Shown one piece after another: positions 813 to 55,314 of a DNA stretch of 64,000 nt; position 1 is the first letter of the stretch; each line of letters begins with the position of its first letter. The position numbers were made by a program, and so were the translations under genes. The stretch is from Pyxidicoccus sp. MSG2 (GTDB lineage Bacteria > Myxococcota > Myxococcia > Myxococcales > Myxococcaceae): NCBI RefSeq assembly GCF_026626705.1, contig NZ_JAPNKC010000001.1, positions 124,001 to 188,000 of the forward strand. The letters are read 5' to 3'. The notes beneath the pieces are model-generated. The model had not been told where the DNA came from and did no database searches. It saw only the letters and a list, made by a program, of their open reading frames with translations.

Positions 813-1100
813 CTAGAGGTTATCGACTGACTTCTGCAACTCCGGATCGAAGTTCTCCCGGACCTTGATGAGGCTCTGGAAGTCCGACTTCTTGCGGTGG
901 AGCACGTACGAGCCTTCCGGCTTCGTCAGCTCGCCCTCCACCGCGACATCGGTGAAGTCGATCACCGTCTTCTTGCGGAAGACAGTGCGGTCCTCCTCCT
1001 GGATGACCTTCACCGAGTCCTTCGAGTTGTCCTGCGCCACCGCCACAGCCGGCGCCACCCACAGCCCCATCACCACCGCCACCGATGCCAGTCGCCTCAT
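813..1100 (-). CDS. nfsF: Small exported protein of the Nfs/Glt cluster (NfsF-like)
   Basis: This 95-residue protein has a clear signal peptide (basic start, hydrophobic stretch, cleavage near AVAVAQ) and a short charged mature part, so it is probably periplasmic. Two ATGs compete. The one at 1106 directly abuts a GGAGG Shine-Dalgarno sequence with no spacing, whereas the one at 1100 sits six bases from it, so 1100 is chosen. It lies between the TPR lipoprotein gene and the FHA gene, where nfs and glt loci carry a small F protein. I see no catalytic motif; the role is inferred from context only. Confidence 0.6.
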   Translation of the reverse strand: MRRLASVAVVMGLWVAPAVAVAQDNSKDSVKVIQEEDRTVFRKKTVIDFTDVAVEGELTKPEGSYVLHRKKSDFQSLIKVRENFDPELQKSVDNL

Positions 1101-1239
1101 ACCCATCCTCCAATCACTCCATCGGGTGAGACAGCGGGTCTTCCAACAGGTTCCCGCGGGTCCATTGCACAGCGCGATCCAAACCCAAGCCCCTGAATCC
1201 TAAGGAACTTGCCTGCCGCCTGCCATGTGCCGGCCCGGC

Positions 1240-1260
1240 AGGTGGAAAAAACTTCCACCT
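1240..1260. promoter_or_regulatory. Intercistronic hairpin
   Basis: A perfect 8-bp inverted repeat (AGGTGGAA with TTCCACCT) surrounds a five-base loop between the TPR lipoprotein gene and the small exported protein gene. On the minus (coding) strand it is followed by another GC palindrome rather than a T-tract. It is better read as an mRNA-processing or partial-termination element than as a full terminator. Confidence 0.45.
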
Positions 1261-1283
1261 CCTGACCGCCACAACTGCCGTCG

Positions 1284-2786
1284 CTACGGCGCCTGCGTGG
1301 GCGCTGGGGCCGCGCTCGGCGCGCCCGGGGCGTTCTGCGAGGGAGCGCCAGGCGCGGCGCTCGCGGGCACCTGGGCCCCCTCCTGAGCGGGCGCCGCCGT
1401 GTCACCGGAAGGTGACGCACCGTCTCCCGTGGGAGCCGCGCCCTCGGCGGACGGCTCGCCCTGAGCAGGAGCGGCGCCTTCAGCAGGCGCCTCGCCCTGC
1501 TCCTGCGGCAGCTGGTTGAGCAGGGAGCCACCGCCGCCGGTGGCCTCGTTCTTCTTCTCGCCCTCGGCGCCGGCCGCGGCGGGCGCCTCGGGAGGCGGAG
1601 CCTTGAGCATGTTCTGCAGGCCCTGCATCTTGGCGGTGATCATCTGGCGGTCCTGGTCCGTGGTGGACTGCAGGCCCTTGCAGCGGTCGAGGAAGGCGAT
1701 GGCCTTCTCCCAGCCCGCGCGGTCCGCGGCATACGCCCAGCCCGCGCCGCACACCGCCTCCGGCAGGTCCGAGCGCGAGGAGAGCACCTTCTCGAAAGTC
1801 TCTCCGGCGGCCAGGCCCTTCTTCGGGTCCGTCCCCTTCTGTCCGTCCAACGCCCACGCGAGGTAGAGGCGCGCCTCCGCGGAGTCGGGCTCGAGCTCCG
1901 TCACCTTGGTGAAGGAGCGCTCGGCGCCCGCGTAGTCGCGGTAGCTCAGCGCCATGGCGCCGAGGTTGAGGTAGCCCGGAGCGAACTTCTCGTCGAGCGA
2001 CACCGCCTTCTGGAACTGGGCGAGCGCGCGTGCGCGGTCCTCCAGCTTCAGGGAGATCATCCCGAGCAGGTTGTAGATGGCCGGGTCCTTCTCCGCGTGC
2101 TTCACGGCGGTGCCGGCCAGCAGCTCCGCGAGCCGGAACTGGCCGCGCGCATACGCCACCTGCGCCAGGTTCTTGTACGCCTCCGGGTTGTCCTTGCTGC
2201 GCACCAGCACGCGGCGGGCGGCGGCCTCGGACTCGTTCAGCTTCCCCGCCACGCGGTACGTAATCGACAGGCTGTTGAGCAGCGAGGCGTCGAACTCGCG
2301 GCCCGGCTGCTTCAGCGCCTTGTCGAGCACCGCAATCGCGTCATCGGCGCGCCCCTGGTTGCGGTGCATCACCGCCAGGTTGACGGCGGACGGCACGTGG
2401 CCCGGGTCCAGGAGGAGCACCTTCTCGTAGGCCACCCGCGCGTCGCCGGTGCGGCCCTGACGCTCGGCGATGACGCCCAGGTTGAACTGCGCGTTGAGGC
2501 TGCGCGGGTCCTTGGCGAGCGCCTTCTCGAAGCCCTGGCGTGCGCTGTCGAGGTCACCCGCCTCATAGGCCTGGAGCGCCGCGGCGAACAGCTCCGAGGA
2601 GGTGCCGTCCTTCGGCGCGGGCGCCTGCACCGGCTGCGGCGCGGGCGGAGCCTGCTCGGGCTTCTGGGCGGACGCGGCCGAGGGGGCCGGTGTCTCCGGA
2701 AGCACGGAGGGCTTCGTCTGGGGCCCCGACGCGCACGCGGCGGTGAAGGCCAGCGAGCCAGCGAGGAACGAGCGGAACCATTTCAT
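1284..2786 (-). CDS. nfsE: TPR-repeat outer-membrane lipoprotein (NfsE-like, paralogue of GltE/AglT)
   Basis: The protein has 500 residues. The ATG at 2786 (MKWFRSFLAGS) gives a compact lipoprotein signal with lipobox FTAAC; an upstream in-frame start would put extra residues before it. After a Pro/Ala-rich linker, residues about 75-390 form consecutive TPR units (patterns such as NAQFNLGVIAERQG and AYKNLAQVAYARGQF). The last 110 residues are low-complexity Ala/Pro/Glu. In the glt gliding system the homologous lipoprotein (AglT/GltE) works with the beta-barrel and giant TPR proteins; here it sits 47 bp after the giant TPR gene, so co-expression is likely. It probably acts at the inner face of the outer membrane. 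Confidence 0.7.
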   Translation of the reverse strand: MKWFRSFLAGSLAFTAACASGPQTKPSVLPETPAPSAASAQKPEQAPPAPQPVQAPAPKDGTSSELFAAALQAYEAGDLDSARQGFEKALAKDPRSLNAQFNLGVIAERQGRTGDARVAYEKVLLLDPGHVPSAVNLAVMHRNQGRADDAIAVLDKALKQPGREFDASLLNSLSITYRVAGKLNESEAAARRVLVRSKDNPEAYKNLAQVAYARGQFRLAELLAGTAVKHAEKDPAIYNLLGMISLKLEDRARALAQFQKAVSLDEKFAPGYLNLGAMALSYRDYAGAERSFTKVTELEPDSAEARLYLAWALDGQKGTDPKKGLAAGETFEKVLSSRSDLPEAVCGAGWAYAADRAGWEKAIAFLDRCKGLQSTTDQDRQMITAKMQGLQNMLKAPPPEAPAAAGAEGEKKNEATGGGGSLLNQLPQEQGEAPAEGAAPAQGEPSAEGAAPTGDGASPSGDTAAPAQEGAQVPASAAPGAPSQNAPGAPSAAPAPTQAP

Positions 2787-2833
2787 CTGCGTCTTCCCTG
2801 TCCCTGCATGAAAGAAGTTGAAGCGGTTGCGCG

Positions 2834-5800
2834 TCACGGCAGCACCTCCCCGAGCGAGGCGGTGGGCGCGGGCGCCTGCTCCTGCGTGGAGGGCGCCTGC
2901 TGGGCCGGGTCCGCGGGCGCGGCCTTTCCGGCCGGCTGCGCGGGCGTCCCGGGCTCCGTGGCCGCCGGAGCGGGCGTCACCGAGGCCTCGGCCGTGCCGT
3001 CCGGCGCACGCGCCAGGTCGGCGCGGGCCATGGAGTCACTGGTGCGGTACTCCACCGGCCGCACCTGCGCGTAGGAGCCGGGGCGGTAGCGGTTCACCTG
3101 GTCCTGCGCGGCCAGCGTCCACGGGCTGTAGACGCCCAGCTCGTAGGCCTTGTCGAGCGCCTTCTCCAGCGCCTCGGTGGCCTTGTCCTCCAGCGGCAGC
3201 GCCAGGTTCTCCAGCTCCCCGCGGTACATGGCGAGCTGGTCCTCGTCGAGCCCCTGCGGGTCCGGCGAGTCCATGATGTTCTTCGCGAAGTCCGCGTACG
3301 CGAGGCCGATGCGCGTGAGCGCCGCGATGCCCCACTCACCCGAGCCCGTGGCGAGCACCGCGAGGTACTCCTTCTCCACGCGCTGGATTTCCTTCTGCTT
3401 CGCGGTGAGGTCCCTGCGGATGGTCGTCACCCGCGAGAACTTGATGTCCGTGTAGCGCTTCCACGCCGGCTCCAGCGCCAGGAAGCGCACGTGGCCGTAG
3501 GCGTTGAGCACCGCCACGTCCTTGCGCGCGGCCTCGGGCAGCTTGTTCCAGGAGCGCACCAGCTCCGCCTGCACGCGCTCCTGCTCCCGCGCGTTCTTCA
3601 GTTGCTGGTACGCGAGCAGCTCGTGGTAGCGCGCCAGGTACAGCTGCGGCGCGGCGGCGCGCGAGTCGCGGCCGTACGTCTCCGCGAAGGAGCCGAAGGC
3701 CTTCGCCGCCTCGCTCCACTTCTTCTCCTTCTCCCAGACGTTGGCGATGGCGAAGGCCACCTGCGGCACGTCCTTGCGGTCCTTGAAGCGCGTGACGTAG
3801 GCGTTGTACGCGGACACGGCCTTCTGCGGCTCGCCCGCGCCCTCCCACCAGACGCCGGCGTTGAACTGCGCGTCCGCCACCCACGTCCCGGCCTCGTCCA
3901 CCAGCGCCTTGCGCTCGGCGGTGCGCTGAGCGCGCTTGGAGTCCGCGTCCTCCACGGCGCCCGGCACGTCGTCCCTCTTCGCCGTGGCCTTGCGCTCCTT
4001 CGCCTTCTTCGACTCGGCGTCGCGCGCCTTCATGGAGGCGTCGTACTCGGTGATGAAGGACTCGGCCATGGTGGCGGCCTTGCGGTACTCGGCCACCTTC
4101 TCGTAGAGGCCGGCCAGCGAGTAGCGCGCCTTCAGCTCGAAGTTGCTGCGCGGGTACTCCTTGAGGAAGCGCTCACCCGCTTCGATGCCCTTGTCGATTT
4201 CACCCGCCTCCTGCGCAATCACCATCACGTAGGTGAGCGCGCGGTCGGCGTTGTCCGACCTGGGGAACTCGGAGACGAACTTGAGGAACTCCTCGGCGGC
4301 CTTCTTCGGGTTCTTCTCCTTCTTGTAGACGACCTCGTCCACCCACTTGTAGTGGCTGCCCTCCACCACGCGGGAGACGCGGGTGGCGAAGTCCGTGCCG
4401 GGCTTGGACAGCCGCTTGTTGGCGAGGAACTTCCGCGACAGCGTGCTCAGCTCGAACCACTCCTCGCGGCTCTCGAGCACGTACATGGTGAGGTCGGCCG
4501 CGTCACGCGAGCGCCGCTCCTCGGGGTACTTCTCGATGATTTCGCCGAAGCGCCGGGCCGCGTCCACGAAGTGGCTGCGGTCGTAGAGGATGACGGCCGC
4601 CTGGTAGCGCAGGTCGATTTCGTCCTGCGTGTCCGGGTACAGCTTCACGTAGATGTCGCACGCAGAGACGAGGCGCTCCTCGAACTTCGTGAGCTTCTCC
4701 TCCTCACGCTCCTTCGCGTCGCGCTTGACGATCTTCTGCTTCGCGACGTCGCCCTTGTCCTTCTTCTCGTCGACCTTCTGGCCGTCCTTGAGGTCGCTCC
4801 TGGCAAGCTGACCCCGTTCAATCTTCACCAGCTTGTCGTAGGCGAGGATGGCGTTGTACGCGGCGCTCTTGCGGTAGGTCTCGTTGGAGACCTCGCGTGC
4901 CGTGTCGCGGTCCGGAATCTTGAACGCCACCACCGCGTCGTACTCGGCGGCGGCGGCCTGCCACTCCTCGAGGGCCCAGAGGATTTCCGCGTAGAAGAAG
5001 CGGATGTTGAAGGCGGAGTCCGCGACGAACTCCGGGTTGGAGCTGGAGGCGAACGCGTCCACGTACTGCTTGTAGATGTCGCGCGCGAGCCGGTAGGTCT
5101 CCACCTGGCGCGTCTTCTGCGCCTCCTGGTGGTACTCCGTCACCATGACGCGCATGGCCTCTTCGGTGACGTTGAAGGCGTTGCGCAGGACGGTGGCCTG
5201 CTTCTCGTTGGCCGTCCACCACTCGCCACCGGGGCTGTAGAGGTCCACCATCCGCTTCATTTCCTTGCGGACCTGCTGGCGCTGGCGGAGTCCCTCGTAG
5301 GCGCGGACGATGGCCTGCTGGTACTCGGGCGCGTTGGCGCCCATGGGCTCGTCGTCCACGAGCGTGCGGTAGGTGAGGATGGCGCTGTCGAAGTGGCCCG
5401 CGTCCACCAGGCCCGCGGCCGTCTTGGCGATGAGGCGGCCCTGCCGCTTCGTGGGAGCCTTCTGCTTGAAGTAGGTGATGGCCTCCTTCGGCTGGTCCAT
5501 CTGCACGTAGAAGACGGTGAGGTCGTTGAGCGCCTCGGTGCGCAGGTCGCCCAGCTCCTCCTTCTTCGAGGAGTAGTCCACCACCTCGTGGAGCTTCTTC
5601 AGGCCCTCCGCGTAGTCACCGGTGTTGTAGTCACACCAGGACAGCTTGTAGATGGCGTACGCGTAGATCTTCGGAACGCCGGAGTCGCGCGCCTTCTCGT
5701 AGTTCTGCTTGGCGGGGATGAGCTTGTTGTTCTCGAAGTAGTGGTTGCCGAGCTGGATGTACGCATCCGGCACGAACTCCGACTTCGGGAAGTCCTTGAT

Positions 5801-6502
5801 GAGCTCCTCGTAGCGGGCCACGGCGGCGTCGCGGCGGCCGAGCTCGTAGAGGTTGTAGCCCATGGAGAAGAGGATCTCGTCGCGCTGGGGGTACTTCGGG
5901 TACGCGCGGAGGATGTCCTCGTAGATGGCCATCGTCTCCGCGCGGTAGCGCTCGCTCTCCTTGTGGTCCTGCTGCGGCTCCGCGGCCTTCTCACCGCGCG
6001 CCACGGCGGCGTCGTACTTCTTCTCCGCCGCGAGGAAGCGGTCCATCTCCAGGCGGTAGAGGTACTGGGACTTCTCCCAGTACAACTCCGACAGGCGGCT
6101 GAGCATCTCCGCCTTCTGCATGTTGTCGTCGTGCAGCTTGGAGACGAGGCGCTTGAGGGCCTCAATCGCCTCGTCGCGCTTCTTGTCCGCGAGCGCGTCC
6201 TTCTTCGAGTCCGCGATGCGGGGGATGTCCGCGAACTTCGCCGTGGCGGGCTTCACCCGCGCGGGGCCCTTGCGCACGTCCTCGGGCGCCACGCCGGGCG
6301 GAGGGGCCTTGGCCTCCTCCTGCTTCGCGGCCTTCTTGTCGGACGCCTTGCCCTTCTCCCGAGCACCCGGGGTCTTCGACGCCGACGCCGAGGCGGGCTT
6401 CTTCACCGCCCTGCGGGCCGGCGATTCCGCCGCCTCTCCCACCCCACCGGCGGCGAGCGCGACACCTACCGCCAGCGCACCGAAACGAAGAACCACCTTC
6501 AT
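2834..6502 (-). CDS. nfsD: Giant TPR periplasmic protein (NfsD-like, paralogue of GltD/AgmU)
   Basis: This 1222-residue protein starts with a signal peptide (VLRFGALAVGVALAAGG) and a Lys/Ala-rich linker, and then consists almost wholly of TPR/Sel1-like helical repeats. Examples are AVARYEELIKDFPKSEFVP and ARRFGEIIEKYPEERRSRD. A charged Lys/Glu segment lies near residues 590-620 and a Pro/Ala tail at the end. AgmU/GltD of M. xanthus gliding, and its spore-coat paralogue NfsD, are TPR proteins of about this size. A good GGAG ribosome-binding site precedes the ATG. It is separated from the upstream C gene by 250 bp, unlike the tight A-B-C spacing, so it may have an extra promoter. Confidence 0.75.
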   Translation of the reverse strand: MKVVLRFGALAVGVALAAGGVGEAAESPARRAVKKPASASASKTPGAREKGKASDKKAAKQEEAKAPPPGVAPEDVRKGPARVKPATAKFADIPRIADSKKDALADKKRDEAIEALKRLVSKLHDDNMQKAEMLSRLSELYWEKSQYLYRLEMDRFLAAEKKYDAAVARGEKAAEPQQDHKESERYRAETMAIYEDILRAYPKYPQRDEILFSMGYNLYELGRRDAAVARYEELIKDFPKSEFVPDAYIQLGNHYFENNKLIPAKQNYEKARDSGVPKIYAYAIYKLSWCDYNTGDYAEGLKKLHEVVDYSSKKEELGDLRTEALNDLTVFYVQMDQPKEAITYFKQKAPTKRQGRLIAKTAAGLVDAGHFDSAILTYRTLVDDEPMGANAPEYQQAIVRAYEGLRQRQQVRKEMKRMVDLYSPGGEWWTANEKQATVLRNAFNVTEEAMRVMVTEYHQEAQKTRQVETYRLARDIYKQYVDAFASSSNPEFVADSAFNIRFFYAEILWALEEWQAAAAEYDAVVAFKIPDRDTAREVSNETYRKSAAYNAILAYDKLVKIERGQLARSDLKDGQKVDEKKDKGDVAKQKIVKRDAKEREEEKLTKFEERLVSACDIYVKLYPDTQDEIDLRYQAAVILYDRSHFVDAARRFGEIIEKYPEERRSRDAADLTMYVLESREEWFELSTLSRKFLANKRLSKPGTDFATRVSRVVEGSHYKWVDEVVYKKEKNPKKAAEEFLKFVSEFPRSDNADRALTYVMVIAQEAGEIDKGIEAGERFLKEYPRSNFELKARYSLAGLYEKVAEYRKAATMAESFITEYDASMKARDAESKKAKERKATAKRDDVPGAVEDADSKRAQRTAERKALVDEAGTWVADAQFNAGVWWEGAGEPQKAVSAYNAYVTRFKDRKDVPQVAFAIANVWEKEKKWSEAAKAFGSFAETYGRDSRAAAPQLYLARYHELLAYQQLKNAREQERVQAELVRSWNKLPEAARKDVAVLNAYGHVRFLALEPAWKRYTDIKFSRVTTIRRDLTAKQKEIQRVEKEYLAVLATGSGEWGIAALTRIGLAYADFAKNIMDSPDPQGLDEDQLAMYRGELENLALPLEDKATEALEKALDKAYELGVYSPWTLAAQDQVNRYRPGSYAQVRPVEYRTSDSMARADLARAPDGTAEASVTPAPAATEPGTPAQPAGKAAPADPAQQAPSTQEQAPAPTASLGEVLP

Positions 6503-6672
6503 GCGAGCTCCTGCCGTGAAGCCGACCCGGCAACCGGGCGATCAGACACCCATTGACGAGGGACGACGGAAAGTAGACGCGCCCTCCCAGAATGAGAAGT
6601 GGCGTGGAACGACTCTTGCGGCCCGTAACTCATTGTCTGGCAATAGCTTCTTCCAGTGCCCGACAACGACGA

Positions 6673-6715
6673 AGGGGGCGGCCCCGGCGCCAACTGCGCG
6701 CGGAGGCGGCCCCCT
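6673..6715. promoter_or_regulatory. GC-rich hairpin in the nfsC-nfsD gap
   Basis: Eleven paired positions with one mismatch (AGGGGG with CCCCCT as the outer part) surround a loop in the 250-bp gap between the C and D genes. No T-run follows on the coding strand. It could attenuate transcription or mark an mRNA-processing point that changes the ratio of A-B-C to D-E-F-G products. Confidence 0.35.
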
Positions 6716-6753
6716 CGTGGGTACGACCGTGGGCGACAGCGGCCCATGTGTGT

Positions 6754-8301
6754 CTATTGTTGCTGCTGCGTGGATTCTGCCGTCTTCGCCGGGCAGCCGC
6801 GCTTCAGCGTGTATTGATAGTAACCAATCTCGTCGATCCAGAACTCGCCCTGGAACTTCCAGTAGTTGTAGTTCGCGCCCGGCATCTTCGGCCGGTAGAG
6901 CGACTGGCGCGTCAGCAGCGCCTTCTGGTCCACGCCGGCCTGGAGCAGGTCCTTCTCGTCCAGCGCCGTCTGCACGCGGATGATTTCGGCCTGGTCGGAG
7001 AAGGTGCGCAGGTTGTCCGCCGCCTCGCGGATGCGGCTCTTGGCCAGGGTGCCGCCGACCTGGAGCAGCGTGCCGCGAATCTCCTCGAGCGAGCCCATCG
7101 TCTGGGCCGCCATGGGCGAGCCGCGCCAGCCGCCGCCGCTGAGCGTGCGCTTCTCCTGGTCCACCTGGTCCAGCATCCGCATCACCTCGCGGATGCGCTC
7201 GTTGTTGCGCAGCCACAGGTACACCGGGCGCGGCAGCCGGCGGTTCTCCGCGGCCACCAGGTTGTAGGCCTGCACCAGCTGCACGTCGTCGCCGGTGAAC
7301 GGGTCGAGCTGCTTCGCCATGGGGCCGTAGAGCTCGTCGAAGGCCGCCAGCGTGGTCTTCACCTCGTCGTAGAGACAGGAGTAGTAGTAGACGGTCGCCT
7401 TCAGAATCCACGACTCGGGCTGGAAGGCGCCCTCGAACTGGGGCGCGTGGAGCGCCTGGAGGCTGCCCAGCGCGCCGCCGAAGTCCTCGTTCTGGAAGCG
7501 CGCGAAGCCGTTCTCGAAGAGGGCCTGGTCCCAGTAGCGAGCGTAGCGGGGCACGCGCTCGTAGGCGGCGGTGGCCTCCGCCTGCTCGCCGCGGCGGTAG
7601 TGCAGCCGGCCCAGGCTGAGCAGCGCCAGGTGCTGGGTGGGCTTGAGCTCCACCTGCGGCTCCTTCGCGGACAGCACCGCGTTGAAGGCGGACAGGGCCT
7701 CCTTGTCCAGCGCGTCGCCCTCACCGGGACGGCCGGGGAAACGCGGGTCCGACAGGACGACGCCGAGCAGGTAGCGCGCCTTGGCGTAGACGCGGCTGTC
7801 CTTCGGGACGGCCTCGAGCAACTGGCGCGCCTCCTCGAAGCGGCCCTTGCGCTGGCTCACCGTGCCCACCAGGTAGTTGATGCGGGCGAGCACCTCCTTG
7901 GGCAGCGTCACCCACCTGTCGCGCACCTCGTCGGTGTACGCCTGGTTGAGGATGCTGGGGATGAGGTTCTGCTCGTCCAATTGCTGCTGCATGTCGACGA
8001 GCCCCTCCACCGCCTTGAGGTACGAGGGGTGCGAGGGCCCGGCGTTGACGATGGCCGCGTAGGAGATGAAGGCGGAGACGGGCAGGCCCTTCTTCGCGAG
8101 CGACTGCGCGAGGAAGTACTCCGACTTGCCCTTCACGTCGGCGTCGGCGGCGCCCTCGGAGAGCTGGAAGAAGAGGGGCGCGGCGGTGTCGAAGTCGCCG
8201 GCGTTGAAGGCGGCCAGCGCGCGGTTGTAACCGCCCACGTCCTGCTGGGCGAACACCGCGAGCGGCGCCAGGACGACGAAGAAGCTGAGCAGTCGTTTCA
8301 T
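6754..8301 (-). CDS. nfsC: Exported TPR-containing protein (NfsC-like)
   Basis: The protein has 515 residues and a typical signal peptide (MKRLLSFFVVLAPLAVFAQ), followed by helical repeats with TPR character (YNRALAAFNAGDFDTAAPLF, SLGRLHYRRGEQAEATAAYE). An in-frame ATG at 8319 would add six residues. The 8301 start has a GAAGG sequence about eleven bases upstream, while the 8319 start has no purine-rich site, so 8301 is preferred, though not firmly. The gene is tightly spaced after the B barrel gene. NfsC/GltC act in the periplasm or outer membrane with the A and B barrels. The protein ends with a short Gln-rich tail. Confidence 0.65.
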   Translation of the reverse strand: MKRLLSFFVVLAPLAVFAQQDVGGYNRALAAFNAGDFDTAAPLFFQLSEGAADADVKGKSEYFLAQSLAKKGLPVSAFISYAAIVNAGPSHPSYLKAVEGLVDMQQQLDEQNLIPSILNQAYTDEVRDRWVTLPKEVLARINYLVGTVSQRKGRFEEARQLLEAVPKDSRVYAKARYLLGVVLSDPRFPGRPGEGDALDKEALSAFNAVLSAKEPQVELKPTQHLALLSLGRLHYRRGEQAEATAAYERVPRYARYWDQALFENGFARFQNEDFGGALGSLQALHAPQFEGAFQPESWILKATVYYYSCLYDEVKTTLAAFDELYGPMAKQLDPFTGDDVQLVQAYNLVAAENRRLPRPVYLWLRNNERIREVMRMLDQVDQEKRTLSGGGWRGSPMAAQTMGSLEEIRGTLLQVGGTLAKSRIREAADNLRTFSDQAEIIRVQTALDEKDLLQAGVDQKALLTRQSLYRPKMPGANYNYWKFQGEFWIDEIGYYQYTLKRGCPAKTAESTQQQQ

Positions 8302-20956: not shown

Positions 20957-20973
20957 TTGGCACCGCCGTTGCT
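20957..20973 (+). promoter_or_regulatory. Sigma-54 promoter of the RpoH-like sigma factor gene
   Basis: TTGGCAC, five bases, then TTGCT: both the -24 and -12 elements match consensus with exact 12-bp GG-to-GC phasing. Transcription is predicted to start near 20984. Confidence 0.7.
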
Positions 20974-21059: not shown

Positions 21060-21947
<888 letters not shown>

Positions 21948-39098: not shown

Positions 39099-41339
39099 AT
39101 GGACATCCGGACTCAGAGCGCTCTGCTGGCATCCATCATCGGGCTCGCGCTCGGCGTGTCCATGTTGTTGCGGCCCGGACGACCGCGGGCCCTGACGCTG
39201 TATTCCGTCTTCGCCCTGACAGTCGCCGGGTACTACCTCTCCCTCTTCTTTCACAGCATCTTCCCCTCGGCCGACTACCCCTGGGCGTCGCGCATCGCCC
39301 TGGGCGCCACCGTCCTCGTGGCCTCCCTGGTGCCGGGCGCCGCGGTGGCCTTCTTCCTGGAGTTCCTGGGCGTCAGCAAGGGAACACACCAGGTCGGTCG
39401 GCGGCTCGCCGTGCTGTCCGCCTTCCTGGGACTCGCCGTGGCCGTCACCCCCCTCGCCGACAAGGAGTGGGCCCGGGTGGCCATCGGCATCTGGGTGGGC
39501 GGCGCGCTGCTGACCTCCGGTTCGTTGCTGGTCCACCGAGTTCGGACGACGGAATCGCGCATCGAGCAGCTGCGGCTGGCGTACCTGGCCATCGGCGCGG
39601 GGGCGGCCATCCTCTTCTCGGCGCTCGACTTCCTGGGGCGCTACGGGATTCCGTTCCCGACACTGGGGCCGGTCTTCTCCACGCTCTACCTGTTCTTCCT
39701 CGCGCAGACGCTGCTGCGGCTGCGGCTGATGGATTTGCATGAGCTGCTGGGGAAGATTGCGTCGCAGACGGTGCTGGCCGTCATCCTCGCGGCCGTCTTC
39801 ACGGTGCTGACGGCGTGGGTGGACGAGGACACGGGACTGTTCGTCTTCAACACGGTGGTGGCGGCCTTCGTGGTCCTCATCCTGTTGGACCCTCTGCGCG
39901 CCAAGGTGGAGGAGATGGTGGTGCGCATCTTCTTCCGCGAGCGCTTCGCGCTGCTCGACTCGCTGGGCACGCTGCGGGCGCGGATGACGAACGTGATTGA
40001 AATCTCGGAACTGGCGCGGCTGGTGCTGGACACGCTCCACGAGACGGGCCGCGTGACGCACGCGTCGGTGTACCTGCTGGCGGAGGACCGGCCCGGGTAC
40101 CGGCTGCTGGACTCGCGGGGCCCGCCGCCGGTCGCCTTCCTGGACACGGCGGTGGCGCGCGGCCTGCTGTTCGCCGCGGCGAGCGGGCAGAAGGCGGTGC
40201 TCCGCGAGAATGTGGAGCGGCGCGTCACCACCATGCGGATCCAGGCCGTGGAGGGCAAGCGCTACCGCGACGAGCTGAAGCGCCTCAACGACACGCGCGC
40301 GGCGCTGGTGCAGGTGAAGGCCGGTATCACCGTGCCTCTGATGGGCAATGACCGCGTCATCGGCTTCCTGAACCTGTGGGACGAGCGGGTGCCGGAGGCG
40401 TACGCGTCCGACGAGATTGCGCTGATTCTGGAAGTGGCCGAGCGGCTGGCGACGGTGCTGGAGAACTCGAAGCTGTACGAGAAGATTCGAGAGCGAGACC
40501 GTCTGGCGGCGCTGGGTGAGATGGCGGCCGGCCTGGCGCACGAGATTCGCAACCCGCTGGGGGCCATCAAGGGCGCGGCGCAGTGCCTGGACCCGAAGCG
40601 GCTGGGAGGCGAGGACGGCGAGTTCCTGGACGTCATCGTGGAGGAAGTGAACCGGCTCAACGGCGTGGTGACGGCGTTCCTCGACTACGCGCGGCCGATG
40701 AAGCAGAGCTTCGGGCCCACGGACCTGAACGAGGTGGTGACGCGGACGATGCGGCTCGTGCAGAACGACGTGCCGTCGAACATCTCCCTGGCGGTGGAGC
40801 TCGACTTGCAGTTGCACCGGGTGGACGGGGACGCGGAGCAGCTCAAGCAGGTGCTCATCAACCTGGTGCAGAACGCGGTGCAGGCACTGGGCACTCGCGA
40901 GGGGCGAATCACGGTGCGCACGGACAAGCCGGAGCGCTTCGGAGAGATTCGCAACGCGGGCGGCGAGTTCGTGGAGGTGCTGGTGTCCGATACGGGGCCT
41001 GGCATTCCGTCGGACCAGCATCAGCACATCTTCGTGCCGTTCTTCACGACGAAGCAGAAGGGCACGGGCCTGGGTCTGGCCATCTGCCAGCGCATCGTGA
41101 AGAACCACGGAGGGAGCATCTCCGTGCAGAGCAAGGTGAACGAGGGCACCACGTTCGTCATTCGCCTCCCTGCCCTGCCCCCGGAGCCGACCGGTGACGG
41201 TGTGCCCGCGGATGGAACGCCGGTGCCCGCCACGCGTCCGTCGCTGTCACTGCCCATCCCGGATGAGCTGCGGGACACGCCCAGGCCGCCGCCACCGGAG
41301 CCGGGCCGCAAGCGTGAGCGGCGGCGGCGCGCGGGGTAG
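39099..41339 (+). CDS. Membrane histidine kinase with GAF domain
   Basis: The protein has 746 residues. About eight membrane helices fill residues 1-270, followed by a GAF-like domain (about 300-450) and then a complete transmitter: H-box AAGLAHEIRNPLGAIKG, N-box QVLINLVQNAVQAL, G1 SDTGPGIP, F-box FVPFFTTK and G2 GTGLGLAIC. The basic Pro-rich tail is atypical. No response regulator lies next to it, so it is an orphan kinase, common in myxobacteria. The signal it senses is unknown. It ends 12 bp from the convergent TIG gene. Confidence 0.9.
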   Translation: MDIRTQSALLASIIGLALGVSMLLRPGRPRALTLYSVFALTVAGYYLSLFFHSIFPSADYPWASRIALGATVLVASLVPGAAVAFFLEFLGVSKGTHQVGRRLAVLSAFLGLAVAVTPLADKEWARVAIGIWVGGALLTSGSLLVHRVRTTESRIEQLRLAYLAIGAGAAILFSALDFLGRYGIPFPTLGPVFSTLYLFFLAQTLLRLRLMDLHELLGKIASQTVLAVILAAVFTVLTAWVDEDTGLFVFNTVVAAFVVLILLDPLRAKVEEMVVRIFFRERFALLDSLGTLRARMTNVIEISELARLVLDTLHETGRVTHASVYLLAEDRPGYRLLDSRGPPPVAFLDTAVARGLLFAAASGQKAVLRENVERRVTTMRIQAVEGKRYRDELKRLNDTRAALVQVKAGITVPLMGNDRVIGFLNLWDERVPEAYASDEIALILEVAERLATVLENSKLYEKIRERDRLAALGEMAAGLAHEIRNPLGAIKGAAQCLDPKRLGGEDGEFLDVIVEEVNRLNGVVTAFLDYARPMKQSFGPTDLNEVVTRTMRLVQNDVPSNISLAVELDLQLHRVDGDAEQLKQVLINLVQNAVQALGTREGRITVRTDKPERFGEIRNAGGEFVEVLVSDTGPGIPSDQHQHIFVPFFTTKQKGTGLGLAICQRIVKNHGGSISVQSKVNEGTTFVIRLPALPPEPTGDGVPADGTPVPATRPSLSLPIPDELRDTPRPPPPEPGRKRERRRRAG

Positions 41340-43057: not shown

Positions 43058-43070
43058 TGACAACCTGTCA
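43058..43070. promoter_or_regulatory. Inverted repeat TGACA-N3-TGTCA, candidate activator site
   Basis: A perfect 5-3-5 palindrome about 90 bp upstream of the sigma-54 promoter of the gspC pair. A second TGACA...TGTC pair with wider spacing lies at 43090-43109. Their position suits an enhancer-binding protein. Confidence 0.5.
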
Positions 43071-43147
43071 TCCGCTCGCGCGGACTCCGTGACAGCGGGT
43101 CGTGTTGTCTGCTCCCGCTGACGACGTCGCTCCTCTGGGTGCGATGG

Positions 43148-43163
43148 TGGCATCGTGCTTGCT
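43148..43163 (+). promoter_or_regulatory. Sigma-54 promoter of the tandem gspC-like genes
   Basis: TGGCAT, five bases, TTGCT with exact 12-bp GG-to-GC phasing. The predicted start of transcription (about 43174) leaves a 29-base leader carrying a GAGAGGAG ribosome-binding site before the ATG. Confidence 0.7.
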
Positions 43164-43202
43164 CATGTCCGTCGTGTCTCTGAACCGAGAGGAGCCACGA
43201 CG

Positions 43203-43775
43203 ATGGAACGCTTCATCCGCAAGCACTTCTGGCTGTTGGGCGGCGCCTTCATCCTCATCGCCGTTCCAGGGGTGGCGGGCACGATGCATCTGCTCAACCG
43301 GCACATTCCCGCACTCGCCCCCGAGCCCAACGCCCCCGCCATCGTCATCGAGCGGGAGCGCATCACCCTCCCCGCGCAGGCACAGCAGGCTCCCGCCCGG
43401 CCCCCCGTGGCAGTCGACACCTCTACGTCATGGGGAGACATCCGCACCGTCGGAGAGCACGCCTACGAGATTGCCTCCGCGGATCTCCAGAATGCGCTCA
43501 TGCGACTGGACGAGCTGTCCACGCAGGCGCGCGTGGTGCCCGCGTTCAAGGACGGAAAGGCACAGGGATTCAAGATGTTCGCCATCCGTCCGCACTCGCT
43601 GTACGCGAAGCTCGGGCTCCAGAACGGTGACGTGCTCAAGCAGATCAACGGGCAGTCGCTCACGACTCCCGAAACCGCGATGACTGCTTTTGGAAGCATC
43701 CGCGACGCCCGGCACATCGAGTTGGACCTGGAGCGCGGCGGAGTCCCCGTGCGGAAGACGTACGACGTGCGCTGA
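43203..43775 (+). CDS. Short GspC-like protein (membrane helix plus PDZ, no HR domain)
   Basis: The protein has 190 residues. One N-terminal membrane helix (FWLLGGAFILIAVPGVAGTM) and a Pro/Ala linker lead straight to a PDZ-like domain (YEIASADLQNALMRLDELST, LYAKLGLQNGDVLKQINGQ). The C-terminal half is about two-thirds identical by eye to that of the next gene. It lacks the roughly 110-residue HR domain that GspC uses to contact the type II secretin. A dedicated sigma-54 promoter lies directly upstream. It may be a decoy or regulatory form of GspC. Confidence 0.75.
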   Translation: MERFIRKHFWLLGGAFILIAVPGVAGTMHLLNRHIPALAPEPNAPAIVIERERITLPAQAQQAPARPPVAVDTSTSWGDIRTVGEHAYEIASADLQNALMRLDELSTQARVVPAFKDGKAQGFKMFAIRPHSLYAKLGLQNGDVLKQINGQSLTTPETAMTAFGSIRDARHIELDLERGGVPVRKTYDVR

Positions 43776-43802: not shown

Positions 43803-44696
43803 ATGTCACTCATCTTCCGCAGGTATTTCTGGCTGGTGAACGGGGCCTTCATCCTGTGCGTCGCGCTGCTGGCGGCACGCATGGCCAATCTCTTCGTGGA
43901 GCTCGCGCTCGCGCCACCCGTCTCCAGCACCCCACCCTCGCACGCACCAGCAGCCACGGCCTCGGAAGAGGCACGCATCCCAGTGGATGGCCCGCGCCTC
44001 GCGAAGCTCATCGGGTTGAGCTTCGGCAAGGACGAGCCCCCCGTGGTCGCGCCCAGAGGCGACGAGGTCGCCACGGGCCCCGTCAGGAGTGCGCTGCGCG
44101 TGAAGCTCCTGGGCACGCTGGTGGCGAGTGACACGCAGTGGTCGCTCGCCTCCATCCAGGACCTGGAGACCCAGCGCGCCAGGAGCCTCATGGTCGGCGA
44201 TGACCTGATGGGCGCGAGAATCCTCTCCATCGAGCGCGAGCGAATCATCATCGCCGCCAACAACCGCGAGGAGTTCATCGACGGAGAAGCCTCGCCCACG
44301 ACTGCCGCCCCCGCCCTGACCCGCACCACAGCCACCGCGAACCCCGGCCCCGAGAGCGGCATCCGCGCCGTCGGCGAGCACTCCTACGAGATTCCCAGCG
44401 AGGAGCTCCAGAACGCGCTCTCGCGACTGGACCAACTGTCCACGCAGGCCCGCGCCCTGCCCGCCTTCGAGAACGGCCAGTCCGTGGGCTTCAAGCTCGC
44501 GGCCATCCGGCCGAACTCGCTCTACTCGAAGATTGGCCTCCAGAATGGTGACGTGCTCAAGCGCATCAACGGCCTGACGCTCGACTCACCCGAGCGCGTA
44601 CTGGAGGCCTTCACGAAGCTGCGCGAGGCGCGGCACATCGAGCTGGACATCGACCGGGGCGGCGGCCCGGTCCGCAAGGTCTACGACGTGCGCTGA
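43803..44696 (+). CDS. GspC-like type II secretion inner-membrane protein
   Basis: The protein has 297 residues. A membrane helix (YFWLVNGAFILCVALLAARM) is followed by an HR-like domain (LRVKLLGTLVASDTQWSLAS, RARSLMVGDDLMGARILSI) and a PDZ domain (YEIPSEELQNALSRLDQLST, GLQNGDVLKRINGLTLDSPE). GspC links the inner-membrane platform of type II secretion to the GspD secretin and helps select cargo. No other gsp gene is nearby. It is 27 bp downstream of the short paralogue and probably shares its transcript. Confidence 0.8.
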   Translation: MSLIFRRYFWLVNGAFILCVALLAARMANLFVELALAPPVSSTPPSHAPAATASEEARIPVDGPRLAKLIGLSFGKDEPPVVAPRGDEVATGPVRSALRVKLLGTLVASDTQWSLASIQDLETQRARSLMVGDDLMGARILSIERERIIIAANNREEFIDGEASPTTAAPALTRTTATANPGPESGIRAVGEHSYEIPSEELQNALSRLDQLSTQARALPAFENGQSVGFKLAAIRPNSLYSKIGLQNGDVLKRINGLTLDSPERVLEAFTKLREARHIELDIDRGGGPVRKVYDVR

Positions 44697-53547: not shown

Positions 53548-55251
53548 TCACCCGCGCCGGCCCCGCTCGACGGAGAGGCCGTACTCTTCAATCTTCTTGT
53601 CCAGCGTGGGCCGGCTGATGCCGAGCAGCGCCGCGGCGCGGACCTTCTTCCCGCTCGCTTCTCGCAGGGCCTCGGCGATGGCGTCGCGCTCCAGGCGGGC
53701 CACGCGCTCCTGCAACGTCTGGGGCCCGGTGGAGGCACCACCCTCCTGGATTTCCGGTGGCAGGTGGAGCGCGCCCACGCGGCTTCCGGCGTAGAGCAGG
53801 CCCAGCCGCTCGCCCACCAGTTCCAGCTCACGCACGTTCTGCGGCCACGCATAGTCCACCAGCAGCCGCCGCGCCTCGGGCCCCAGGGTGGGAGGCTCCT
53901 TGCGCGAGCGCCGTGCCGCGCGCGTGGTGAACCCCTCCAGCAGCACGAGCACATCCGCCCTGCGCTCGCGCAGCGGAGGCACCTCCAGCTCGAACCCGAG
54001 CAACCCCCGCGCGAGCGACGCCTCCACCTCGCCCCGTGTGGCCAACAGCGGCAGCGGCTCGAGCGCGGTGGCCAGCACCCGCACGTCCACCGGTTCCTCG
54101 CCGCCCTGCCGGGCCGGAGCGGACCGGCGGGCCAGCAGCCGCGCCAGCCGCTCCGCCGACGGACGCGGCAGCGCCTCCACGTGCTGCAGGAGCAGCGAGC
54201 CCCCATCCGCGCGCAGCAGCGCGGACGTCACCGGCGGCTGCCCCGGAGCGTTGGCACGGCCGAAGAGCGCCTCGTCCACCGCCGGCTGGGGCTGACGGCA
54301 GTCCACCATCACCAGCGGCCCCAGCGCCCGCGGGGAGCGCGAGTGGACCATGCGCGCCAGCAGCGTCTTCCCCGTCCCCGGCTCACCATGAATCACCACG
54401 GGCGCGGCACTCGCCGCCGCGCGCTTGCCCGCGTCCAGCAGGGCGCGCAGCGGCCGCGAGGAGCCCGCCAGCGCCAGGGCGGGAGCCTCCGCCTCCACTC
54501 GCGAGCGCACGGCCGTGTACGCCTCACCGCCCAGCCGCCCCAGCGCGGCGAGCAACTGCCCCTCGCCCTCGGTGAAGGCGGGCTCGGCCCGAGTCACGTA
54601 CAACACGCCGAAGGGCATGCCGCCCGAGGCCACCAGCGGCGCGCACATCACGTCGTCCGACTGGCTCAACTCCTTGCGCTCCAGGGCCGCCTGGGCCATG
54701 GCGCGCGGCACCGTCAGGGCCTCCGCGCCCACCACCGAGGCGGTGAGCAGCCCCCCGCTGCTGCCCAGCAGCGCCGCCGCCCGGTCCGCGTTGAGCGCGT
54801 GCGCCGCCTCGTCCGCCAGCCGCCGCAGCACCATGGCCTCGCTGGTGGCACCGAGCAGCGCCGTCCCCGCCGAGTACATCGCCGCCGCCGTGCCCACGTG
54901 CGGCAGCACCTCCTCGATGGGCACGTGCCCGTGCGGCGCGGGCCCGCCCTCCACGAGCGTCACCGCCGGAGGCTCGAAGAGGGCCGTCGTCGTCCCCACG
55001 CGGACGCGGTCCCCCGGCTGCAGCGCCACCTCGCCGGAGAGGCGCTCTCCGTTGACCAGCGTCCCGTTGCGCGAGCGCAAGTCGCGGATGCGCACCTGCC
55101 CCTCATGGAGGGTGAGCAGCGCGTGCTTGCGCGAGACCTGGTCGTCCTCCAGGGGGATTTCACACGACGGGCTGCGGCCGATCGTCGCTTCCGTGAGCAC
55201 CTCGTAGCGGCGCCCCGCGGATGGACCGGTGAGCAGCAGTAATGCGGGCAT
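53548..55251 (-). CDS. FHA-GAF-AAA+-Fis protein with degenerate NtrC-type ATPase
   Basis: The protein has 567 residues. The FHA domain (about 15-85; IGRSPSCEIPL, VSRKHALL, SRNGTLVNG), a GAF-like domain, an NtrC-like AAA+ domain and a Fis-type helix-turn-helix (KVRAAALLGISRPTLDKKI) follow in order. Walker A is intact (GEPGTGKT). The GAFTGA loop that contacts sigma-54 is missing, Walker B reads LLLQHVEAL where DE is expected, and the sensor Asn is gone. It should not open sigma-54 promoters and may act as a phospho-Thr-controlled DNA-binding repressor or co-regulator. Confidence 0.85.
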   Translation of the reverse strand: MPALLLLTGPSAGRRYEVLTEATIGRSPSCEIPLEDDQVSRKHALLTLHEGQVRIRDLRSRNGTLVNGERLSGEVALQPGDRVRVGTTTALFEPPAVTLVEGGPAPHGHVPIEEVLPHVGTAAAMYSAGTALLGATSEAMVLRRLADEAAHALNADRAAALLGSSGGLLTASVVGAEALTVPRAMAQAALERKELSQSDDVMCAPLVASGGMPFGVLYVTRAEPAFTEGEGQLLAALGRLGGEAYTAVRSRVEAEAPALALAGSSRPLRALLDAGKRAAASAAPVVIHGEPGTGKTLLARMVHSRSPRALGPLVMVDCRQPQPAVDEALFGRANAPGQPPVTSALLRADGGSLLLQHVEALPRPSAERLARLLARRSAPARQGGEEPVDVRVLATALEPLPLLATRGEVEASLARGLLGFELEVPPLRERRADVLVLLEGFTTRAARRSRKEPPTLGPEARRLLVDYAWPQNVRELELVGERLGLLYAGSRVGALHLPPEIQEGGASTGPQTLQERVARLERDAIAEALREASGKKVRAAALLGISRPTLDKKIEEYGLSVERGRRG

Positions 55252-55314
55252 GGGGCGCGGAGCGTAGCGTTCCGCCGGAGCCGGGCAAGCGCTCCCTGTG
55301 CCCCGCCGCACGGA

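Follow-up and report, generated by a model that had tools for sequence, protein, structure and literature searches.

A sigma-54 promoter with paired putative activator sites, common to accessory gspC genes and the core type II secretion locus of Pyxidicoccus, and its probable Nla4-type activator

Background

Sigma-54 promoters require an activator, and finding one ahead of stray genes for a secretion component raises the question of which regulator drives it and whether the control is peculiar to those genes. Such a case is presented by two tandem gspC-like genes, gspC1 and gspC2, in the window analyzed here, namely the whole 64,000-nucleotide stretch G000:C1:124001-188000 of the 13.3-Mb genome of Pyxidicoccus sp. 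MSG2 (coordinates without a contig prefix are those of the window). An initial annotation of this DNA had proposed that they represent an extra component of the type II secretion system (T2SS) under conditional, activator-driven sigma-54 expression. Below we examine the promoter, its conservation and its distribution across genomes, and present the regulator that is likely to act on it.

Results and discussion

Anatomy of the gspC1 promoter

The sigma-54 -24/-12 element, TGGCAT-N5-TTGCT, lies at 43148-43163 (+) with the invariant GG and GC at 10-bp spacing, just as first annotated. With the C of the GC pair set as -12, transcription is predicted to start at 43174, which yields the previously suggested 29-nt leader up to the ATG at 43203, with the ribosome-binding site of gspC1, AGAGGAG, read from the sequence within it at 43188-43194 (+). 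Further upstream are two putative activator sites. Site 1, at 43058-43070 (+) and centered about -110 from the predicted start, is the perfect palindrome TGACA-ACC-TGTCA, the single instance of TGACA-N3-TGTCA in the window as against 0.03 expected from shuffles. Site 2, TGACA-GCG-GGTCG at 43090-43102 (+) and centered at about -78, is an imperfect palindrome that reproduces site 1 imperfectly and with identical internal spacing, 32 bp or three helical turns away. The first palindrome had been noted at the outset; the second TGACA/TGTC pair drawn with it was misplaced, as the TGTC claimed for it lacks conservation even in the closest relative, G022, and the actual second site is the one given here. 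The possibility that site 1 is the terminator of the upstream Zn-ribbon gene was rejected, since there is no T run and the palindrome is retained next to other upstream genes.

Two sites three helical turns apart, placed 5' of the -24/-12 element, constitute the classical NtrC arrangement, and E. coli glnA is an example of an NtrC-type enhancer with such paired sites. In Myxococcus xanthus, NmpR also has a pair of sites, S1 and S2, ahead of a sigma-54 element (PMC11841059), and the gspC1 promoter resembles these enhancers in its two palindromic sites 5' of the -24/-12 element. The predicted operator differs in sequence from those described for other regulators of M. xanthus: the NmpR consensus is GCGCA-N5-TGCGC (PMC11841059) and the Nla28 half-site CT(C/G)CG(C/G)AG (PMC7910581), as opposed to TGACA-N3-TGTCA here.

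A second perfect sigma-54 element, TGGCACCGCCGTTGCT, was observed elsewhere in the window at 20958-20973 (+), about 90 bp before a gene for an RpoH-like sigma-32 protein (21060-21947), which suggests that this heat-shock-type sigma factor gene might also be under sigma-54 control.

Conservation of the elements across six species

Protein searches of 41 genomes recovered orthologous cassettes in G022, G002, G020, G011 and G019, and their promoters were aligned with that of the Pyxidicoccus genome under study. The resulting six-promoter alignment displays four conserved islands, GTGACA[AG]CCTGTCA, CGTGACAGNNGGTC, TGGCAY...TTGCTCA and, before the start codon, AGGAGCCACG, which correspond to site 1, site 2, the sigma-54 element and the ribosome-binding site, and are separated by spacers that have diverged among the species. 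The two putative activator sites are 32-33 bp apart in 6/6 species, and the distance from site 2 to the sigma-54 element is variable, at 58, 80 or 92 bp. The upstream gene varies between species with the promoter elements being kept; in G020 the cassette even occurs in another gene neighborhood with both sites intact. As a side observation, a gene for a GAF-domain histidine kinase is found upstream of the cassette in the window (39099-41339, +) and adjoins it in G011.

Given that both the spacers and the encoded proteins have diverged, yet the sites, the sigma-54 element and the ribosome-binding site are intact in all six species, their retention points to selection. Judged by these sequence features, the sigma-54 promoter ahead of gspC1-gspC2 is real.

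The paired sites mark gspC promoters across genomes

We then turned to sequence-pattern searches of whole genomes. The genome scan for the motif that had been recommended at the outset returned 2 copies of the single perfect palindrome in the whole genome, close to our own estimate of about 2 from base composition; hence, the motif by itself is not significant. The other copy, at G000:C1:5845514 (L002/L034), has no sigma-54 element in range, and we accordingly abandoned the lone perfect palindrome as a marker of the regulon. The paired-site pattern, TGACANNNNGTC-N18-23-TGACANNNNGTC, behaves very differently: it has exactly 2 matches in the 13.3 Mb, one in the gspC1 promoter and the other in the promoter of the core gspC gene, and across 41 genomes 32 of its 35 matches fall within 1.3 kb of a gspC-like gene, while reversed-pattern controls gave zero matches in all genomes searched. 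Three further patterns, each joining one site to the sigma-54 element at a different distance, likewise matched only at the gspC1 and core gspC promoters of the Pyxidicoccus genome and, over 25 genomes, at gspC-like genes in 43 of 45 cases. Thus, the combination of elements and its conservation exceed chance, as attested by the specificity of the paired sites, the empty reversed controls and the six conserved promoters.

Our table of gspC-like genes shows that nearly every promoter-proximal gspC copy of the genus carries a sigma-54 element and at least one recognizable site, the exception being a weak match in G011 (L174), and that the second genes of gspC tandems have no sigma-54 element or site ahead of them. 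The pattern weakens outside the genus, and ahead of the core gspC of G026 and G028 nothing was detected at the thresholds used. As the core gspC and nearly all promoter-proximal accessory gspC genes carry the same elements, the control appears to be shared with the core machine. Activator-dependent sigma-54 control of the extra T2SS component, as originally proposed, thus has good support from phylogenetic footprinting and from the specificity seen genome-wide; this control is, however, not special to the extra genes. Within the Pyxidicoccus genome, the restriction of the pattern to the gspC1 and core gspC promoters implies that one regulator probably switches on both.

The core T2SS locus and an Nla4-type activator

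The gspC-D-E-F-G cluster holds the only full-length GspD match in the genome, and its gspC promoter resembles that of gspC1 in having both a site pair of this kind and a sigma-54 element. Directly upstream of this core gspC is a gene (G000:C1:1518207-1519616) for an NtrC-type response regulator, which combines a REC domain, a sigma-54 activation domain with the GAFTGA loop and an HTH_8 (Fis-type) helix-turn-helix domain. The activator thus adjoins a gspC gene whose promoter has the sites in question, and the order activator-gspC-gspD is kept in several families, Anaeromyxobacter included. It is 98% identical to its counterpart in Pyxidicoccus caerfyrddinensis and 94% to that of M. xanthus AM003, in which the activator gene is followed by the same site pair, the sigma-54 element, gspC and gspD. 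Its nearest paralogue in the Pyxidicoccus genome, which codes for many other sigma-54 activators, is 49% identical. Synteny provided no cognate kinase: upstream of the activator, other families have genes of the SRP54 and Rho types and one for an unidentified protein.

In M. xanthus, GspD is MXAN_2514 (PMC3222651) and Nla4 is MXAN_2516 (PMC2875238). With these being two locus numbers apart, just as the activator identified here adjoins gspC-gspD, we consider the core-linked activator to be the Nla4 orthologue by synteny. In the open-licence papers, Nla4 of M. xanthus is instead described for its part in the stringent response, growth and development. That nla4 mutants grow poorly in rich medium (PMC7910581) suggests that the activator may be active during normal growth, and expression need thus not be of the conditional kind that was first proposed. 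If one regulator acts on both promoters, as is probable, it is very likely the Nla4-type protein encoded beside the T2SS cluster.

We further examined 80 homologues of the activator with their loci. In Ca. Scalindua, the gene for a homologue with 50% identity is followed by two perfect TGACA-N3-TGTCA sites and a perfect sigma-54 element; in Neobacillus niacini, that for one with 45% identity is followed by one perfect and two near-perfect sites, again with a perfect sigma-54 element. About 0.008 perfect palindromes are expected per locus as against the 2 and 1 observed, respectively; as 80 loci were examined, the Neobacillus case is not strong by itself, whereas the Scalindua case is. An R-(T/N)-(I/L)-Y-R-K stretch of the recognition helix is common to the Scalindua, Neobacillus and myxobacterial activators. 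The motif is missing from the vicinity of some other homologues whose recognition helix is similar, and hence the link between activator and motif drawn from these distant relatives is suggestive. In both organisms the sites precede operons unrelated to T2SS: the loci (L105 of Ca. Scalindua arabica, 1320-7293; L132 of N. niacini, 924-7041) each comprise a kinase-activator pair, the sites, the sigma-54 element and an operon with iron-sulfur oxidoreductase-like proteins. Rokubacterial homologues (54-58% identity) were also considered and set aside, having neither gspC in the downstream flank nor a site with a sigma-54 element.

A model for the control of core and accessory gspC genes

Taken together, we are fairly confident that gspC1 is served by a sigma-54 promoter and a two-site enhancer as part of a T2SS regulon, in which an Nla4-type activator drives both the core and the accessory gspC genes. 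Under this proposal, two NtrC-type activator dimers would bind sites 1 and 2 on one face of the helix, the sites being three turns apart, and the activated dimers would oligomerize into an AAA+ ring that remodels sigma-54 polymerase and opens the promoter at 43148-43163 for transcription of gspC1-gspC2. Core gspCDEFG would be controlled by the same activator via its own site pair of this type, such that expression of the core machine would be accompanied by alternative GspC subunits from the accessory genes.

Of the competing explanations, a different activator at the same sigma-54 promoter deserves the most attention, though we regard it as improbable. The genome encodes many NtrC-type activators, any other of which might be considered, and one of the FHA-domain type is encoded within the window itself at 53548-55311 (-), about 10 kb downstream of the gspC pair. 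Moreover, a viable nla4 insertion mutant of M. xanthus has been obtained (PMC7910581), even though the T2SS genes of that organism resisted deletion (PMC6434023), which implies either a leaky insertion or the possible existence of a further activator besides Nla4. Nevertheless, the site pair is common to the core gspC promoter, which adjoins the gene for the Nla4-type activator; the sites are intact in G020, where the cassette is in a different neighborhood; and distant Nla4-type homologues adjoin the same palindrome. These observations also disfavor the FHA-domain protein as the activator of gspC1. A markedly poorer case can be made for an unrelated dimeric protein, for instance a repressor, occupying the palindromes, with the sigma-54 activator binding elsewhere: palindromes of the 5-3-5 bp form suit many dimeric DNA-binding proteins, but the six-promoter alignment leaves no other conserved stretch for an activator, and the spacing of the two sites before the -24/-12 element is that of the NtrC arrangement. 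Finally, we give hardly any credence to the elements being an inert relic of gspC duplication that has fallen out of use, for although the accessory genes are gspC paralogues with a promoter anatomy common with the core gene, the proteins have diverged to 55 and 45% pairwise identity along with the spacers, and the elements have not.

The accessory GspC proteins

The description of the genes as a gspC-like tandem is accurate as to there being two of them, and is to be amended in that the first lacks the HR domain and the second is full length. The product of gspC1 (43203-43775, +; 190 aa) has an N-terminal membrane anchor and a PDZ domain, and matches the GspC_delta profile NF041515 only over positions 179-311. 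Its alignment with the core protein shows that the HR region is missing, with a remnant, IERERI, being kept. In its structure model the N-terminal half is of low confidence, and the C-terminal half is modeled, at high confidence, as a PDZ domain that most closely resembles those of EpsC and PulC. The protein encoded by gspC2 (43803-44696, +; 297 aa; Pfam T2SSC) is a full-length GspC with both HR and PDZ domains that matches NF041515 over positions 1-311 with a score of 247.6 bits, the cut-off being 150. We recognized no separate promoter ahead of gspC2, which is probably co-transcribed with gspC1.

In protein searches, at least two gspC-like matches were obtained in 24 of 25 genomes of the genus. 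The core GspC proteins of Myxococcales stand apart in the tree from the accessory lineages of the genus, with the exception of one extra copy in G036 that groups with the core sequences. The gspC1 product retains the N-terminal anchor and C-terminal PDZ domain of the known GspC/EpsC/OutC proteins and departs from them in lacking the HR domain; further, gspC1 and gspC2 are not part of a gspD-G cluster and belong to separate accessory lineages. In G003, G005, G010 and G016 (L164, L168, L169 and L172), we encountered accessory GspC proteins of only 162-169 aa, likewise devoid of the HR domain; these have signal-peptide-like N-termini and the same sigma-54/site promoters, and are possibly periplasmic PDZ proteins.

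The HR domain of GspC is described as interacting with the secretin GspD (PMC3169554), and in Vibrio only some of the substrates require the PDZ domain of EpsC (PMC12369372). From these precedents we infer that the accessory GspC proteins might tune cargo selection, with the HR-less gspC1 product keeping only the membrane anchor and PDZ domain; a role as competitor or decoy is just as conceivable.

Relationship to earlier surveys

In a 2025 survey, the predicted sigma-54 targets of Myxococcia are reported to show a predominant enrichment in T2SS COGs, COG3031 among them (PMC12316311). It agrees with our findings in identifying T2SS genes as predicted sigma-54 targets, and therefore sigma-54 control of T2SS genes in Myxococcia is not wholly new. 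It differs in reporting enrichment at the level of the class, with a main text that mentions neither upstream activator sites nor an Nla regulator. For the operator, the action of Nla4 on gspC and the accessory gspC regulon, we found no report in the open-licence literature, and their novelty is to be taken as provisional.

Conclusions

RpoN is indispensable to M. xanthus, and the reasons are described as not elucidated (PMC2725144). If the one T2SS operon detected depends on sigma-54, this essentiality would be linked to the failure to delete the T2SS and the poor growth of nla4 mutants. It becomes possible to test whether the need of Myxococcus for sigma-54 stems from its T2SS, with the predicted operator providing a specific, mutable target. 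The finding also brings the extra GspC genes, which occur genus-wide and several of which lack the secretin-binding domain, under a control common with the core machine, and the HR-less forms bear on how the PDZ domain of GspC selects cargo. As a tentative proposal, Nla4-type proteins might constitute a dedicated sigma-54 master switch for the T2SS in Myxococcota, which might in part account for the essentiality of sigma-54 in M. xanthus, with the accessory and partly HR-less GspC proteins serving as interchangeable PDZ adaptors that are made together with the core machine and widen or tune its selection of cargo.
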